Below are positions 2,170-9,400 of a stretch of 48,254 nucleotides of DNA, piece after piece (position 1 is the first letter of the stretch; the number at the start of each line of letters is the position of its first letter). The stretch covers positions 1-48,254 of the forward strand of contig JAGWBV010000010.1 in NCBI GenBank assembly GCA_021295715.1. Direction: 5' to 3'. Below the pieces are notes generated by a model. It did no database searches. It was not told where the DNA came from and worked only from the letters and a program-made list of their open reading frames with translations. This DNA comes from Candidatus Poribacteria bacterium. GTDB lineage: Bacteria; Poribacteria; WGA-4E; WGA-3G. Both the position numbers and the translations under genes were made by a program.

Positions 2170-3387
2170 GTGCCAAAAATGCAAAAATACGATGTCGCAT
2201 TGTCATTTGCCGGAGAAGATCGACAATATGCCAAGGCATTATCAGCTCTTCTTGAAGCGGGTGGATATAAACCCTTTTACGACGAAAATGAGTTATCTGA
2301 TCTTTGGGGAAAGAACCTCTATGATTACCTATCATCGGTTTACAAAGACCGAGCGCGTTATTGTGTGATGTTTCTGTCTAAGCACTACGAGCGAAAGTTA
2401 TGGACCAACCATGAACGCCAGCTTGCACAAGCCAAGGCATTTCAAGAAAACCGTGAGTACATTTTGCCAGTTCGCCTCGACGATACAGAGATTCCGGGCA
2501 TTCCTCCCACAGTCGGGTATCTGGATTTACGTTCAATGACTATTGAAGAAGTGTATGAGGCTTTAGATAAGAAGTTATCGGGTACAATACCAAAAACCGC
2601 TGCAACGGATCGAATTACTTCCAGTGTCGCTGAGAAAGACACAACTGAATATGTCTTGTTAATTTCTGAAGATCGAAAGTCGTATTTCATTCCAGTTCAA
2701 AATGCACGTTGGGATTCAACAGAAATTTCGCTTGAACTGCTTCCAGAATCCCCTGAAGAAACTGCTTTTCTCCGCACATTAAGAAGGCATATCAATGATA
2801 CATTTGCAAGGGATGTTCACATTGCACTTGCGCTCAGAGAAGATGCCGCGTGGGTAAAACCCCAGGAAATTGTAGAAACTGCATCCGGTTCTCAAATCGT
2901 TTGGAAAGTTGTTTTCAAAGAAGAAAGACACAGACAAAATGCGAATCCCCTTGGTGAAATGACATTTGGCAGTCTTTCACCAGACACGATGGCTGAAATG
3001 CGTGCAAGGCGCATCCTGCTTGACGAGAAATTAGGCGACCTCCCACCAGATTTCCAGAACCGAACAGGCCCCACGGGTTTATTCAATGAAGTTACATTGG
3101 AAATGTTTATTCGTGGAGGGAACGGATTTCAAATTTCTGCCTCACCCATCCCATCCTTATATCGCTTTATCGGGAAAAGCCAAAGTCAATTTGAGAAGTT
3201 TGCCCGTTTAACATCTATTCTTTACCTGAAACTTTCAAATACAGTTGAGGAGATACTTCAATTTGATTTGAAACTTTTGAATTCTGAACAAGTAGAAGTC
3301 AAATTTAAAGGACGGCGACACAAACGGTTTATGAACGTTGAACCCCATACCTTTGAAGTTAATGGCACTTGCCAACTCTCTGAATAA
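2170..3387 (+). CDS. TIR-domain protein with unrecognised C-terminal domain
   Basis: 405 residues. Residues 5-140 are a TIR domain: YDVALSFAGEDR opens strand A, FYDENELSDLWGKNL is the BB region, and SKHYERKLWTNHE (70-82) has Glu82 where NAD-cleaving TIR domains carry their catalytic Glu. After a linker, residues about 155-405 form a separate domain I do not recognise, with several predicted beta strands (EYVLLISEDRKSYFIPV, EISLELLPES, then VHIALALRED, QIVWKVVFKEE). The GTG start at 2170 has AAGGA eight bases upstream; an ATG at 2179 is possible. With a Pycsar-like cyclase and a HEPN-like gene just upstream, NADase-mediated abortive infection is the obvious hypothesis. Whether the C-terminal half senses a nucleotide is unknown. 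Confidence 0.8.
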   Translation: MPKMQKYDVALSFAGEDRQYAKALSALLEAGGYKPFYDENELSDLWGKNLYDYLSSVYKDRARYCVMFLSKHYERKLWTNHERQLAQAKAFQENREYILPVRLDDTEIPGIPPTVGYLDLRSMTIEEVYEALDKKLSGTIPKTAATDRITSSVAEKDTTEYVLLISEDRKSYFIPVQNARWDSTEISLELLPESPEETAFLRTLRRHINDTFARDVHIALALREDAAWVKPQEIVETASGSQIVWKVVFKEERHRQNANPLGEMTFGSLSPDTMAEMRARRILLDEKLGDLPPDFQNRTGPTGLFNEVTLEMFIRGGNGFQISASPIPSLYRFIGKSQSQFEKFARLTSILYLKLSNTVEEILQFDLKLLNSEQVEVKFKGRRHKRFMNVEPHTFEVNGTCQLSE

Positions 3388-3506: not shown

Positions 3507-4725
3507 TTGGAAGATAAAAATAACATCACTGCTAAAACCATAAACGAGTTTATAGAATGGGCGGCACAATTTAGCGATGGACAAAATAGAGGCATCCGCT
3601 TATCGTCGCCTCCGAGAAATCGACAGAAACGATCCAAAAAAGTTGATAAAAATCAACAAGGATTTGATAGAAAAAGCACGAAGTCTGGGACACGACCAGA
3701 GAGATGGCAGACAACTTCCTGATCTTGAACTACTGGCAGAACTTCAGCATTTCGGCGCAGCCACCTGTCTAATAGACTTCACGCGTAGTGCATTGGTCGC
3801 GCTCTGGTTCGCCTGTCAGCAAGGATCCCAAAGAGAAGCAAATGGTAAAGTATTCGCTGTCCGACACGATGATATGGTCCGTTTGAAAACGGTGAATCCC
3901 GAATTGATAAAAGAAGATATTGACTATTTTCTCGAACCGGACAAAAACGGTAGATATCCCCTCTATCAATGGCAACCCAAACTCCAGAACAATCGCATTA
4001 TCGCCCAACAGTCTGTCTTTGTATTTAGTGGGGCCCAAATTGAAGCAGGGGCTGAATGTGTCATTGATAAAAATAGCAAGCAAAACATCCTAATCGCTCT
4101 GGATAAAATATCAGGTATCACCGAAGCTAATATTTATCCAGATTTCGATGGATTCGCTCGCTTACATGCCCACAACAAATCTTACATTGAACCCGATGCC
4201 CAAGACTATCTGCAACGCGGTATTGAAACTCACCAAAATGATAATTTAGATGATGCCATTGAGTACTACACTGAAGTTATACGATTAGATCCAGCGGATA
4301 CCTCTGTTGTTTCCATGGCTTACTACAATCGTGGTGTTGCGTATGACGGAAAAAATGAGGTTGACCTTGCCATCCGAGACTATAACCAAACTATACAACT
4401 CAATCCAAATTCCGCCGATGCCTATAACAATCGTGGTTACGCTTACCGTCAAAAAGGCGAAATTGAACGCGCTATTGAAGATTATGACCGAGCTATACAG
4501 ATCAAAGCAGATAACGTTCTGTTTTACAACAATCGCGCTATCGCACTATTACACCTCAAAGAGTGGGAAAAAGCCAAATCGGACTTGACGATTGCCCGAA
4601 ACATGGGAGTAGATATCATTACTTTATTTCGTAACACTTACGCGAGCGTTACAGATTTTGAGCAGAGATATGATATTCAAATGCCAGCGGACCTCGTTGC
4701 ACTCCTAACTCCCGCGCAGGTATAG
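3507..4725 (+). pseudogene. FRG-domain / TPR fusion gene with broken N-terminus
   Basis: The main reading frame (from 3577, 382 codons) has an FRG domain core (SAYRRLREIDRND; LLAELQHFGAATCLIDFT; ALWFACQ; RIIAQQSVFVFSG) followed from about residue 215 by TPR units (YYNRGVAYDGKNEVDLAIRD, YNNRGYAYRQKGEIERAIED) and a conserved tail (EQRYDIQMPADLVALLTP). The proper FRG start (NITAKTINEFIEWAAQFSDG, then RGI in place of the usual YRG) lies in a different frame from 3507, so the two halves are joined by a frame break and apparently a small deletion between RGI and ASAYRRL. The same family appears intact but split into two genes at 6140-7657. FRG domains are of unknown activity and often sit near defence genes. 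A sequencing error at 3577-3610 is not excluded. Confidence 0.7.
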
Positions 4726-4740
4726 CAGTAAAACAAAACG

Positions 4741-5281
4741 CAATAAGTAGTTTTGGACTTATGGGTGTGCAATAGACACGAGAAGCTGGCTACACTAAAA
4801 AGTGGCATCGCTTGTTCGCGGGGGCAGCACACCTTACATAATTAAGGTTTTGAATCCTATATCAAATTAGAAGGAGACGATAATAATGACATTCTTTATA
4901 CCAACAAAGTCATTAGGAGATCAGGAAATCACTCATCATTTTGTAGACCTTGAAAAGGCTCAACGAATTTACGCGTCAACAACAGCCACACTTGAGGAAT
5001 CATACCGACAAAAAGGAAGTCACTGCATAGTGACAGAAATGTCTCCTAATAACAAAGATTCATCCATATATTCATACGGATCACAACGAGAATGTGAAAA
5101 TGAAATAAAAAACTTAACCAAAAAACTAAAAAGACGTAATAAGATGCGGCACATTATTGCCCCAGGCGTGTTTATATTCTTAGGCTTAGTTTTAGGTGTT
5201 GCCATAAGTTTAATACCAACCATTATACAATAAGTAATTTGGCGCTTAACATAGATTTTTCGAGTCCAAAACTACTTATTG
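4741..5281. mobile_element. 541-bp cassette bounded by perfect 19-bp inverted repeats
   Basis: CAATAAGTAGTTTTGGACT at 4741-4759 is the exact reverse complement of 5263-5281. The repeats enclose one small gene (4886-5233) with its own ribosome site. No target-site duplication and no transposase are visible, so this would be a non-autonomous element mobilised in trans, or a relic. Confidence 0.5.
4886..5233 (+). CDS. Small C-tail-anchored membrane protein, unknown
   Basis: 115 residues, with a strong AAGGAGA ribosome site seven to eight bases before the ATG. The N-terminal 65 residues are soluble and hydrophilic. A basic, Lys/Arg-rich helix (KNLTKKLKRRNKMRH, about 76-90) is followed by one transmembrane helix at the very C-terminus (APGVFIFLGLVLGVAISLI), predicting a cytosolic N-terminus. 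I do not recognise the family. It is the only gene inside the inverted-repeat-bounded cassette. A role in the surrounding defence-like island is possible but unsupported by any motif. Confidence 0.6.
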   Translation: MTFFIPTKSLGDQEITHHFVDLEKAQRIYASTTATLEESYRQKGSHCIVTEMSPNNKDSSIYSYGSQRECENEIKNLTKKLKRRNKMRHIIAPGVFIFLGLVLGVAISLIPTIIQ

Positions 5282-5390
5282 TGAAAAACAAAAATCCCTC
5301 CTCTTAGCAGATAACTTGATCAGGACTTACGACTGGACAAGTTAGCAAACTGCTTACACCGACAGTCCCAAATCCTGAATGGGAAAGAAG

Positions 5391-5660
5391 ATGAACAAAT
5401 CAAGAGTTTTCGCAGACTTCCACAACGCAGACGTAAAAGGTCGGGTGCGGTTGAACTGCGCTGGGACAGCAGCAGATCTCGAACGTCAGGGCATTGTGCT
5501 GCAAGAGGGACAATCCCTTATCATCTATAGCGAAGAGTTGGAGGTTGAGGGTGTTGCTCACTACTCAGAAGCAGAAAAATTGTGGACCGCGGTGATTGAT
5601 TGGAATGCCATTCGAGAAGTAGAACCTGAAGTGGCAACGTTAATTCAGACCAAAAATTAG
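5391..5660 (+). CDS. Conserved hypothetical small protein
   Basis: An 89-residue soluble protein starting MNKSRVFADFHNADVKGRVR and ending in EVEPEVATLIQTKN. The ATG at 5391 follows the purine-rich GGGAAAGAAG; an in-frame ATG at 5379 is an alternative. The central part (GIVLQEGQSLIIYSEELEVE, then GVAHYSEAEKLWTAVIDW) looks like a small beta-rich fold. I believe similar short proteins are common in Poribacteria-like and planctomycete genomes, but I cannot assign a function. It stands alone between the cassette and the IS3 remnant. Confidence 0.6.
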   Translation: MNKSRVFADFHNADVKGRVRLNCAGTAADLERQGIVLQEGQSLIIYSEELEVEGVAHYSEAEKLWTAVIDWNAIREVEPEVATLIQTKN

Positions 5661-5665
5661 CAAAG

Positions 5666-5817
5666 TTAAGACAAGGTTTGTTGCTCAAATTCGGCAGGTG
5701 TTAAATACCGTAACGCCGAATGTGGCGTTTCTGGTGATACACCTATGTCATAAAAGGACCGATGCGTTCTCTCGCCTCGGTTATATCTTCATACACATTG
5801 AGGTGGACTTCCTCCTC
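5666..5817 (-). pseudogene. IS3-family transposase, C-terminal remnant
   Basis: Read on the minus strand this encodes EEEVHLNVYEDITEARERIG, then PFMT, a TAG, and VYHQKRH. A one-base frame change then gives HSALRYLTPAEFEQQTLS and a stop. The pattern (two hydrophobic turns, EAR..IG, Y..KR.HSAL.Y..P.EFE) is the end of IS3-group integrase domains. Only the last 50 or so codons remain, with an internal stop and a frameshift, so it is dead. It abuts the fragment of an FRG-TPR family gene at 5858, suggesting that insertion and later deletion removed the rest of both genes. Confidence 0.75.
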
Positions 5818-5820
5818 CTT

Positions 5821-5864
5821 CGCAACATTTCGCTATATTTCGCAGCATTTCGCTATATTTCGCA
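5821..5864. repeat. Short tandem repeat
   Basis: Two copies of a 20-base unit, ATTTCGCTATATTTCGCAGC-like, plus a partial first copy, at the junction between the IS3 remnant and the TPR-tail remnant. Probably expansion of TTTCGC from the conserved TTTCGCAAAGAATACG codons of the TPR tail. Confidence 0.5.
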
Positions 5865-5959
5865 AGAAGGAATACGAAAACGTTGCCGACTTTGAGCAGA
5901 AACATAACGTTAAACTACCAAACGAGATTGCCGCACTGCTAATTTCCCTGCGGTCATAG
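5858..5959 (+). pseudogene. 3' remnant of a third FRG-TPR family gene
   Basis: Encodes FRKKEYENVADFEQKHNVKL then PNEIAALLISLRS, nearly identical to the C-terminal tail of the TPR gene at 6860-7657 (FRKEYENVAALEQKHEIKL) and related to the tail of the gene at 3507-4725. No TPR units or start remain upstream; the IS3 remnant is there instead. Confidence 0.75.
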
Positions 5960-5989
5960 TAGAAAAACAAAAAACTGTCCTCTTAGTGG

Positions 5990-6101
5990 CTCACCTGATG
6001 TTACAGAGGGTCAATCCGCGAAATCCGTGTAATCCGCATAATCCACGATTCCGACTGCTTCATAAATTGAAATTGACAAACGGCCACATACATGCTATGA
6101 T
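5990..6101 (+). repeat. AATCCG intergenic repeat, copy B, carrying a promoter
   Basis: Carries the units CAATCCGCGAAATCCGTG, TAATCCGCATAATCC and ACGATTCCGACTGCTTCA, then AAATTGACAAACGG and CATACATGCTATGATTTAA, matching copy A at 1805-1914 across the promoter boxes. Confidence 0.7.
6073..6101 (+). promoter_or_regulatory. Sigma-70 promoter for the FRG/TPR pair
   Basis: TTGACA at 6073-6078, 17-base spacer, TATGAT at 6096-6101. Expected transcription start is about 6107-6109, which makes the ATG at 6107 an unlikely translation start and favours the TTG at 6140. Confidence 0.7.
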
Positions 6102-6139
6102 TTAACATGAAAGAGAATTCATATCGTGGAGAACAGCGT

Positions 6140-6856
6140 TTGAACACACAAGAAACCGAACTGAACGGGATTTTAGAGATAATCGGTAGGATAGCAGAAA
6201 CAACCGCCGATGGTGATTTCATCTATCGCGGCGAACCGCAACACTATGAAGAAGTTTCCTCAAGTCTGTGGCGTGAATGTCGGGAAGAGATTGGGACAGA
6301 GGAATTTGATATAGAAGCCATCCAAGAGCGAATGCTCGAAGCAGCGAAAGACTATACCCACGAAACAGATCCTTTTGAAATCCTGACCGAACTTCAACAT
6401 CACGGTGGTCATACCAATCTTATAGACTTTACAACCGACAACCATATAGCCCTTTTCTTCGCATGTGACGGCTTCCTTGACCAACCCGGCAGGATAATTT
6501 TATTTCAAAGAACGGAAGAGATAAATGAAGAGTACAAAATTAGGGAACCACAGAATCCAAGAAACCGCGTCATAGCCCAGAAAAGCATATTCGTGCGACC
6601 TCCCAAAGGTTTCCTTGAGTCAGAGCCGTACGATGTAATTCACATTCCTCAATTGCTTAAAGAGCCGATATTAGATCATTTGCAAAAACAGCACGGTATC
6701 TCAACACAGACCGTCTACAACGATCTTCACGGGTTTATCAGAGACCAGAACACCCACCTGAAAGAATGCATAGAAGTTTACGATGCCGAAACGCAGCAGA
6801 GGGAAGATGACTTTCAGCTTGAATCGTCTCAAATCAATAAGGAGAGGGAGACATAA
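6140..6856 (+). CDS. FRG-domain protein
   Basis: About 238 residues. The FRG domain spans nearly the whole protein: GDFIYRGEPQHYEEVSSSLW holds the YRG motif, then ILTELQHHGGHTNLIDFTTD and HIALFFAC, then RNRVIAQKSIFVRPPKGF. The TTG at 6140 has GGAGA seven bases upstream. The ATG at 6107 would place the start at or before the predicted transcript end, so TTG is preferred. The stop is followed by AAAC and the ATG of the TPR gene, so the two are translationally coupled. The homologous protein at 3507-4725 has FRG and TPR in one chain, so these two products probably act together. FRG activity is not established. Confidence 0.75.
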   Translation: MNTQETELNGILEIIGRIAETTADGDFIYRGEPQHYEEVSSSLWRECREEIGTEEFDIEAIQERMLEAAKDYTHETDPFEILTELQHHGGHTNLIDFTTDNHIALFFACDGFLDQPGRIILFQRTEEINEEYKIREPQNPRNRVIAQKSIFVRPPKGFLESEPYDVIHIPQLLKEPILDHLQKQHGISTQTVYNDLHGFIRDQNTHLKECIEVYDAETQQREDDFQLESSQINKERET

Positions 6857-6859
6857 AAC

Positions 6860-7657
6860 ATGCAGACTCAAGCAGAACAGACCCCTTACGATATCACCAT
6901 TGAGCGCTTTAACAAAGCGATTGAACGAAGACCTACTTTTGCCCAAGGCTATAACTATCGAGGTATTGCCTATGGTAATATAGGCGAAATTGACCGCGCC
7001 ATTGAAGACTTTAACACGGCTATTAGACGCAAAGAAAACTACGCCGAGGCATACAGCAATCGAGGGGCAGCTTACCGCATCAAAGGTGACTATGATCGCG
7101 CATTTGAAGATTGCAATATAGCGATAAGACTTGACCCAAATTTACCAGAAGCATACAACAATCGCGGAATAGCGTATAAACTCACAGGTGAAATAGATCG
7201 GGCTATTGAAGACTATAACACAGCAATAGAACTTGACCCCAGTTTTGCTTATGCCTACTACAACCGTGGTATTGTTTACTATGAAAAACAAGAATTTGAT
7301 CTCGCCATCAAAGATTATACCAAAGCCATAGAACTGAGACCAAACCTCGTCCATCCCTATAACAATCGTGGTAATGTTTACAGGAAAAAAGGCGAGTATG
7401 AACGTGCCATCAAAGATTATGACGCGGCGATAGAGCGTAACACTGATTTGGCAGAGCCATACTACAATCGGGGTATGGTATTCTTACGCTTGAAAAAATG
7501 GGAAAAAGCCAAAGAAGATTTGACAACTGCCAGAGACAAGCAGGAAAATATCATCATTGAACAGTTTCGCAAAGAATACGAAAACGTTGCCGCCCTTGAG
7601 CAGAAACATGAGATTAAACTACCGGAAGACATCGCCGCACTGCTAACTTCCCCGTAA
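6860..7657 (+). CDS. TPR protein with conserved FRG-family tail
   Basis: 265 residues made of about six to seven consecutive 34-residue tetratricopeptide repeats (for example YNNRGIAYKLTGEIDRAIED and YYNRGIVYYEKQEFDLAIKD), then a tail, FRKEYENVAALEQKHEIKLP, EDIAALLTSP. No signal peptide. AAGGAG lies in the end of the FRG gene and the gap is 3 nt, so the pair is one operon from the repeat-borne promoter. The repeats are highly alike at DNA level, so copy number may vary by recombination. TPRs mediate protein binding; the partner is presumably the FRG protein. Confidence 0.85.
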   Translation: MQTQAEQTPYDITIERFNKAIERRPTFAQGYNYRGIAYGNIGEIDRAIEDFNTAIRRKENYAEAYSNRGAAYRIKGDYDRAFEDCNIAIRLDPNLPEAYNNRGIAYKLTGEIDRAIEDYNTAIELDPSFAYAYYNRGIVYYEKQEFDLAIKDYTKAIELRPNLVHPYNNRGNVYRKKGEYERAIKDYDAAIERNTDLAEPYYNRGMVFLRLKKWEKAKEDLTTARDKQENIIIEQFRKEYENVAALEQKHEIKLPEDIAALLTSP

Positions 7658-8227: not shown

Positions 8228-9400
8228 ATGCCACTGAACAGGAAAATACGTTACGGCATGGTAGGAGGTGGACCGGATGCCTTCATCGGTGCTGTCCATC
8301 GTAAAGCCGCTGCACTTGATGGAGAAATCGATCTCGTTGCTGGGGCGTTCTCATCATCACCCGAAAAATCCCGACAGCAAGGTGCTGAACTCTTCCTCGA
8401 TCCGAGTCGGGTCTATGGATCTTACAAAGAGATGGCAGAGAAAGAGAGCCAACTTCCCGATGGCGAACGCATTGATTTCGTCTCAATCGTAACACCGAAT
8501 CACGTCCATTTTGATGTCGCCAAAACCTTTATTGAATCCGGGTTTCACGTCGTCTGTGATAAGCCGATGACTACAACGGTTGCCGATGCTGAAACGTTAT
8601 GCAGCCTCGTCAAAGAACACGATGTCGTTTTCGCACTCACGCACAACTACACAGGCTATCCGATGGTGAAGCAGGCACGTGAACTCGTGAAAGCGGGGAA
8701 ACTCGGAACGCTCCGTAAGATCGTCGTTGAATACCCGCAAGGTTGGCTCGCTACATTCTTAGAGGACGAAGGCGCGAAACAAGCCGTCTGGCGCACGGAT
8801 CCGAACCAAGCGGGTGCATCCTCATGTATCGGAGACATCGGTTCCCACGCTGAGAACTTGGCACACTATATCACCGGACTCGACATCGAAGAAATTTGTG
8901 CCGACATGACCACTTTCGTAGAGGGACGCTTATTAGAAGACGATGGAAACCTGCTCGTGCATTATGAAAACGGTGTCCGTGGTGTGCTTTATGCATCGCA
9001 AATTTCGGTAGGTGAAGAGAACAATCTGCGTATCCGTGTCTACGGCACCGACGCGTCGCTGGAATGGCAACAAGAAAATCCGAACTATCTCTACGTCCGC
9101 TTCCCCGACGGTCCCGAACAGGTTTATAAACGCGGCAACGATTATCTGTCAGAAGTCGTGCAACACAATTCGCGGATACCGTTCGGACACCCAGAAGCTT
9201 TTATTGAAGCATTCGCAAATATCTATGTAAACGCAGCGCGGACAATCGCAGCGAAAATCGCAGGGGAAACCCCAACTGAGTTTGATACAGATTTTCCAAC
9301 CGTCCAAGATGGCGCACGCGGCGTGCACTTCATTAATGCAGCTGTAGATAGTGGTAAACAACGCGCGTGGATCGATGCAAGGTATACGCCACCGGCATAA
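8228..9400 (+). CDS. Gfo/Idh/MocA family oxidoreductase
   Basis: 390 residues. N-terminal Rossmann fold with a nucleotide-binding loop (YGMVGGGPDAFIG, about 9-21); the family motif is CDKPMTTT (about 112-119, Lys-Pro), followed by the C-terminal alpha/beta domain with the sheet that binds the sugar or cyclitol. GDIGSHAENLAHY holds the conserved Asp/His region of the active site. The family oxidises or interconverts sugars with NAD(P). AAAGGAG lies upstream of the ATG, and a promoter is at 8118-8146. The TIM-barrel isomerase-like gene at 9661 follows in the same direction, a pairing common in inositol and rare-sugar catabolism. Exact substrate unknown. Confidence 0.9.
   Translation: MPLNRKIRYGMVGGGPDAFIGAVHRKAAALDGEIDLVAGAFSSSPEKSRQQGAELFLDPSRVYGSYKEMAEKESQLPDGERIDFVSIVTPNHVHFDVAKTFIESGFHVVCDKPMTTTVADAETLCSLVKEHDVVFALTHNYTGYPMVKQARELVKAGKLGTLRKIVVEYPQGWLATFLEDEGAKQAVWRTDPNQAGASSCIGDIGSHAENLAHYITGLDIEEICADMTTFVEGRLLEDDGNLLVHYENGVRGVLYASQISVGEENNLRIRVYGTDASLEWQQENPNYLYVRFPDGPEQVYKRGNDYLSEVVQHNSRIPFGHPEAFIEAFANIYVNAARTIAAKIAGETPTEFDTDFPTVQDGARGVHFINAAVDSGKQRAWIDARYTPPA

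Follow-up and report, generated by a model that had tools for sequence, protein, structure and literature searches.

Among the closest known relatives of the genes treated here is the Frg clade, which Burroughs and Aravind (2020, as cited in PMC9503650) placed in the ADP-ribosyltransferase (ART) superfamily; passages of PMC9503650 name Frg a possible NADase and potential antiviral effector. We analyzed FRG-domain genes in contig C10 (JAGWBV010000010.1) of a 5.14-Mb Candidatus Poribacteria-type genome; the whole stretch of 48,254 nt is called the window, and L and G numbers denote our comparison loci and genomes. Between positions 3507 and 7657 the window carries a broken gene in which FRG is fused to tetratricopeptide repeats (TPRs), an intact FRG gene followed by a separate TPR gene, and the 3' relic of a further TPR gene. 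All three objects, first set out in a preliminary description, were recovered from open reading frames (ORFs), Pfam matches and a profile of the conserved tail in which the TPR parts end. The window FRG genes have the same domain (PF08867), a predicted ART-type fold and an association with immune genes in common with the published clade, whereas here FRG is nearly always coupled to TPRs bearing the conserved tail, a coupling absent from the passages of PMC9503650 seen. In the literature searched (titles, abstracts and passages) we found neither an FRG-TPR coupling nor a worked-out FRG mechanism. The TPR coupling and the sharing of modules described below look new, FRG as a candidate immune effector being already published.

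Two further sets of relatives are known. The PADLOC family PDC-S15, a candidate phage defense whose S label we take to mean a stand-alone single gene, matches both window FRG genes (E 1.9e-25 for the fused and 2.2e-20 for the split gene); PDC-S15 is a single gene, whereas the genes studied here form a fused or two-gene FRG-TPR unit. Plasmids of Cetobacterium, Lactiplantibacillus and Thiolapillus encode FRG domains of 25-40% identity, the Cetobacterium gene lying, by annotation, directly behind the type I restriction genes hsdR-M-S. Unlike the window genes, none of the three plasmid FRG genes inspected (0/3, of nine records with a match) had an annotated TPR neighbor. In sequence searches, the closest named relatives of the window FRG protein were from Candidatus Poribacteria metagenome-assembled genomes (MAGs).

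The intact unit consists of the split FRG gene (6140-6856; Pfam FRG 50.8 bits, cut-off 25) and, three bases downstream, its TPR partner (6860-7657; Pfam TPR_1 E 3.8e-59), which ends in the conserved tail (7556-7654). Both genes are on the forward strand, as are all window features below unless stated. The FRG frame is open from 6107; the start at 6140 given in the preliminary description is supported because the relatives begin at window residue 12. The FRG gene retains the [FY]-R-G motif. Identity to its orthologues in other species is 59-78%, mostly with the gene spacing unchanged. The ratio of nonsynonymous to synonymous substitution was 0.12-0.17 in five comparisons of FRG and, in four of the TPR gene, 0.12-0.21. 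Given these low ratios, both genes are under purifying selection.

The coupling recurs throughout the loci compared. FRG genes were detected with a profile built for this analysis in loci L034-L153 and L169-L172 plus the window, which gave 136 genes. Of these, 85 were fused to TPRs and 38 had a TPR ORF within 60 nt downstream (123/136), as compared with 8 of 966 background ORFs (those of at least 200 aa that were neither FRG nor TPR). Among the remaining genes four had a TPR within 1.5 kb, three lay at a contig edge and six, two of them broken, were without TPR; in all, 16 of the 136 were broken or partial, contig-edge cuts counted in. The view that FRG and TPR belong together was thus borne out. 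Pfam gave 140 FRG matches, four in the window's own genome and 136 in 40 relatives. Left out of the profile-based set were three matches in G015, L168 (which overlaps L127), L134 (a masked stretch which, read by hand, holds a fused FRG-TPR gene) and L132 (an FRG fragment without an ORF). Outside the Poribacteria, 11 of 14 FRG ORFs were TPR-fused in 80 loci of named genomes, a set which by design holds close relatives of the query; these ORFs came from MAGs of Entotheonella, Caldilineaceae, Dehalococcoidia, Chloroflexota and Nitrospira(les).

Fused and split forms have replaced one another repeatedly, in line with the gene fission or fusion first proposed. With 34 genes labeled split and 76 labeled fused on an FRG tree (a quick tree search of 113 rows), six changes were required, at least three of them forced by well supported branches. 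The label of L080 was moved from fused to split, its FRG ORF overlapping a following TPR ORF of 12 repeats.

The structure model of the FRG domain (249 aa, from 72 sequences) had a mean predicted local distance difference test (pLDDT) score of 94.4. Upon re-alignment to 411 chains, nearly all of the 50 matches listed were ART-fold proteins, the best with Z 8.0 and a root-mean-square deviation of 2.7 over 114 residues. In 72 diverse FRG domains the invariant residues were R41 and G42 (of the [FY]-R-G motif), R56, T103, F108, Q158 and D206. The classical ART motifs place a catalytic arginine on the first strand and a glutamate at the third motif. R41 presumably occupies the place of the catalytic arginine, as judged by offsets of the aligned ranges rather than by coordinates. 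A search of the FRG profile against sequences of solved structures returned only two protein-kinase rows (E 0.05 and 0.1), which we took as chance. On the strength of the model, we assign the FRG domain to the ART superfamily as a predicted member.

A Gfo/Idh/MocA-type gene (8228-9400, by Pfam) forms the conserved edge of a variable site that holds the FRG genes. Of 24 genomes of the genus, 23 have a single counterpart of it, and in 10 of those 23 an FRG gene lies within 10 kb upstream, as compared with 0.2 expected if FRG genes were scattered (Poisson 2e-14, an overstated value because the genomes are related). We read the site in thirteen other genomes; L323, a fourteenth locus, is a second reading of a site already counted with FRG. 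The L314 site contains a type IIG enzyme, PycTIR (71% identical to that of L040), PycC (73% to that of the window), a TIR gene and a TPR remnant; L312 has a type IIG enzyme and a TIR-TPR gene, and L315 and L321 have type IIG enzymes. Other genes occupy the site in L310 and L317, and none of FRG, TPR, TIR, PycC or type IIG was found in L311, L313, L316, L318, L319, L320 and L322, of which L318 and L319 are shortened by contig ends. With these contents, the site shows the pattern of a defense hotspot. Loci in which the variable site can be viewed upstream of the Gfo/Idh orthologue are L039, L124, L312, L314, L321 and L323.

The contig opens with the pyrimidine cyclase gene PycC of a Pycsar system (79-771; PADLOC PycC E 4.9e-96). 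The PycTIR effector stands directly upstream of PycC in L040 (4281-5918) and L314 (7713-9347); hence, the window's Pycsar system was probably cut by the contig end. Although FRG-TPR and Pycsar (PycC plus PycTIR) are neighbors within one island, FRG-TPR is not the Pycsar effector, because by Pfam it has no cyclic-nucleotide-binding domain, a domain present in L040:4281-5198. Nor does FRG-TPR resemble STAND/NLR-type (Avs-like) receptors, which have a NACHT or NB-ARC NTPase between effector and repeats, since no NTPase family was found among the window proteins by Pfam at E 0.1. More widely, PADLOC gave 232 matching families in 125 genes near FRG (sampled from 228) versus 49 in 148 distant genes (from 185), and type IIG enzymes, along with type II methylases and one TIR-type family, head the near matches. 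This excess is only suggestive, as the families overlap, no union counts were given and mean gene length before sampling was 392 versus 271 aa. Eight FRG-TPR genes have a gene of a methylase-type cluster within 150 nt downstream (three members checked by Pfam). The defense setting first suspected from the neighboring genes is thus upheld by the PADLOC matches of the window genes and by the Pycsar, TIR and type IIG genes of the hotspot.

Taken together, we hold with moderate confidence that FRG-TPR genes are effector-plus-sensor genes of a defense hotspot, in which the FRG effector most likely uses NAD+ and the tailed TPR arm serves for recognition or docking. The arm would recognize either an infection signal or an upstream partner held in common; FRG, the effector, would then consume NAD+, by depletion or by transfer of ADP-ribose to a target, and the loss of NAD+ or the ADP-ribosylation would stop phage growth. 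The fused and two-gene forms would be equivalent states of one unit, interconverted several times. In the window, the fused unit, whose place is behind the TIR gene, is broken and without its FRG motif; the two-gene unit is intact and under selection. With its near-constant TPR coupling of FRG, its mapped hotspot and its natural fused, split and broken forms, this lineage offers a direct test of FRG function and of its trigger.

Several observations weigh against this reading. Foldseek alone against the PDB gave a best match of E 0.021, which is not significant, and Z scores of 8 or less can reflect a common arrangement. No glutamate is invariant in the 72 FRG domains, Q158 being the nearest invariant candidate; thus, without a conserved third-motif glutamate, NADase activity is not assured. 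The 10 of 23 hotspot genomes are related and hence not independent. Away from the hotspot the link is weak: of the 22 FRG loci in five genomes whose main chromosome is complete, 2 had a TIR gene within 10 kb (0.34 expected, p 0.04), and 1 had a DNA methylase nearby versus 1.65 expected, which is no enrichment. A subgroup of split FRG genes with long TPR partners adjoins sulfatase-like genes (judged by eye) rather than defense genes.

In a different account, the role is still defense but FRG modifies one particular molecule of phage or host with ADP-ribose and does not deplete NAD+. The structural matches, which include target-modifying ARTs and Tpt1/KptA, fit such a transferase, as does the want of a conserved classical catalytic glutamate. 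Set against these is the published naming of Frg as a possible NADase in the passages seen of PMC9503650, and we regard pure target modification as possible though unlikely.

The gene arrangement could also be that of a toxin-antitoxin pair, with an FRG toxin silenced by its TPR partner and serving maintenance of a plasmid or island rather than sensing. Split FRG and TPR genes are tightly coupled, some of them overlapping, the same TPR tail stands beside PIN-type genes (L163 PIN, L288 DUF3368 and L301 DUF5615), and an FRG gene of plasmid pTBH13 lies within a toxin-antitoxin cluster. However, a type II system consists of two small separate genes, and although the window pair alone would fit that description, the 85 of 136 genes that encode FRG and TPRs in one chain, up to 1658 aa long, do not resemble a toxin with a separable antitoxin. 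Moreover, TPR arms ranging from 1 to 32 scored repeats fit recognition better than simple neutralization. We therefore consider this explanation doubtful.

Poribacteria, Entotheonella, Caldilineaceae, Dehalococcoidia and Nitrospirales are lineages known from sponges. As these are the very lineages whose MAGs contain the FRG relatives, the genes might encode TPR-rich, eukaryote-like proteins that a sponge symbiont uses against its host, but at the variable site FRG-TPR genes have Pycsar, TIR and restriction genes for neighbors, which makes a host-directed role quite improbable.

Returning to the reading of FRG-TPR as a defense unit, the fused copy in the window (3507-4725) is broken. It is made up of two overlapping frames, 3507-3722 and 3577-4725, with the frame change near 3585. 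Its Pfam FRG match starts only at profile position 18 (47.8 bits, cut-off 25) and is followed by TPRs and the conserved tail (4618-4716). The protein is 95.5% identical to the 415-aa product of L039:9995-11242, a gene that is intact in a different species of the genus, and intact orthologues from three more species (L078, L040 and L038) have 79-82% protein identity to the window; the copy of a fifth species, L048, ends at 305 aa. The 1352 nt of window DNA span 1387 alignment columns against L039, which indicates that ~35 nt were lost, and this loss coincides with the frame change and removes the [FY]-R-G motif. The decay noted in the preliminary description is thus real in the sequence as assembled, although the frame break may be an assembly error.

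A TIR-domain gene (2170-3387 in the window; Pfam TIR_2 E 2.1e-18) is the constant 5' partner of the fused gene, standing 118-121 nt upstream of its original start in six of six loci (the window and five other species, with TIR identities of 85-88% to the window). A seventh species (L314) has kept the TIR gene (87% identical), behind which only a 144-aa TPR remnant is found. Across the seven loci the TIR ORF was full length in all (7/7), whereas FRG-TPR was intact in four and broken in three. The structure model of the TIR partner, made from six sequences, was unusable (pLDDT 38.8).

The fused and split FRG domains of the window are only 28% identical to one another. Each is 75-95% identical to its orthologues elsewhere (L097 at 65% and L142 at 59% being lower), and the deepest fork of the 113-row tree, which is fully supported, separates the two. 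The fused-then-split gene order recurs in L038 and L048. The two genes are old paralogues with a neighborhood in common.

The TPR relic (5867-5959) has a history of its own. Over its 82-nt block at 5867-5948, identity is 85% with the split tail and 63% with the fused tail, and the relic is closest (82-89% identity) to the tails of split-type TPR genes. The likeness is not chance, because the tail profile finds the relic in the whole genome at E 3.7e-16. Directly in front of it lies the 3'-end remnant of an IS3-type transposase gene (5626-5858, reverse strand), recognized by 83% DNA identity to regions overlapping ORFs of L138 and L095; both of these ORFs match the Pfam families rve and rve_3, and that of L095 also matches HTH_21. 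The combined insertion sequence (IS) and tail block recurs in two other species, with identities of 95% (IS part) and 91% (tail) in L124 and of 93% and 91% in L039; the relic is common to these species at 90-95% identity, and in L124 the block is again found just 5' of a split FRG gene. Hence, the relic is an older shared scar rather than a fresh local event, and it is the leftover of another split-type TPR gene truncated by an IS3 element. The preliminary description saw in this arrangement a local duplication with gene fission or fusion and decay, all inside 4 kb, and although three family members with repeated tails and spacers do lie inside that distance, the low identity of the two FRG genes, their orthologues elsewhere and their places in the tree, by which we rejected duplication as their origin, together with the sharing of the relic by two other species, leave a recent local origin scarcely credible.

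The tail follows the motif E-x-[KR]-x2-[IV]-x-[LM]-P-x-[DE]-x2-ALL; a common tail motif had been noted correctly except for its spacing, which is two rather than three residues after K/R. A tail profile of 33 columns built from 46 sequences located 59 tails in seven genomes; 26 of them lay no farther than 3 kb from an FRG match and 28 no farther than 6 kb. A preponderance of tails without FRG had been named as what would speak against the pairing; the division was about even. The tail as an FRG-specific mark was rejected on the same counts.

We read 24 loci with tails away from FRG (20 plus four of the window's genome) and sorted them by hand. Six encode TIR-TPR proteins (L165, L283, L285, L297, L299 and L300), and five have a PIN-type neighbor or an antitoxin-like front (L163, L287, L288, L294 and L301), with Pfam backing for the PIN-type neighbor only at L163 (PIN), L288 (DUF3368) and L301 (DUF5615). 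One (L290) has a TPR-TaqI_C gene followed by an ATPase gene, and five (L164, L284, L289, L291 and L295) have TPRs without another known domain, the L284 protein adjoining a methylase match. The last seven are fragments or lack an ORF (L166, L286, L292, L293, L296, L298 and L302), although L298 retains the end of an FRG domain. The PIN-type cases suggest that the TPR arm also serves toxin-antitoxin-like pairs. The coordinates of the tailed TPR genes with PIN-type neighbors are L163:6499-7834, L288:3912-5332 and L301:3771-5147.

The arm and tail are of the same kind whether they stand behind FRG or behind TIR in one chain; in TIR-TPR proteins from these genomes, of which L165:5146-7587 is an example, TIR, another NAD+-type effector, replaces FRG. 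Many of these TIR-TPR proteins have a TaqI_C specificity domain and a RecF/SMC-like ATPase encoded behind them. The FRG-TPR proteins of L089, L128, L103 and L073, like the TIR-TPR protein of L165, run on into a TaqI_C domain, which PADLOC aligns to the region that gives type IIG enzymes their specificity, and the RecF/SMC-like ATPase gene comes next in an overlapping frame in L165, L290, L299, L300, L089, L103 and L128. The window FRG and TPR genes are without TaqI_C or ATPase parts. The full-length effector TaqI_C parts are 51-85% alike among themselves and the truncated L073 part is 43-48% alike. We also considered a DNA specificity common to the effector TaqI_C part and an adjoining type IIG enzyme and found it unsupported, as the comparison was possible at one locus only (L128), where identity is 25%. 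From these large forms, which do not enter into the main reading, we tentatively entertain, as a possibility that is on the whole unlikely, a scheme of modular receptors in Poribacteria and their neighbors, in which the tailed TPR arm would be the common sensor or docking part, the FRG/ART or TIR effectors acting on NAD+ would be swapped, and in the TaqI_C forms recognition of a site or state of DNA would switch on NAD+ consumption. If so, FRG and TIR sharing one arm would mean that the sensing and killing parts of bacterial immunity are exchanged as units. The loci with a TaqI_C ending and an ATPase gene (L165:3764-7587, L299, L300, L089, L103 and L128) are a possible new defense system.

Several smaller features complete the region. 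A HEPN-domain protein, which with PycC and TIR counts among the neighbors in favor of the defense reading, is encoded at 1143-1721 (Pfam HEPN E 2.8e-5, 24.7 bits, cut-off 22). Behind the fused gene lies a small insert (4738-5286) with one 115-aa ORF (4886-5233); the insert is missing from this place in the relatives. It is bounded by a perfect 19-nt inverted repeat (4741-4759 and 5263-5281; 0.01 expected by chance), is single copy in the genome and has ends that match short stretches in G001, G010, G014 and G020; it looks like a mobile element. The 93-aa ORF that follows (5379-5660) belongs to no Pfam family, and nine further FRG loci hold a match to it; the FRG-TPR chain L040:2593-4245 carries it as its N-terminal part. 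A 45-nt intergenic repeat (848-892 and 6011-6055, 76% alike) precedes island genes and is a possible recombination point. Sulfatase-like genes are found behind split FRG and long TPR genes in L055, L079, L144, L146 and L147. Finally, a small family of ~140-150 aa, of which the one member checked had no Pfam match, is encoded directly behind FRG-TPR in L047, L068, L074 and L077.

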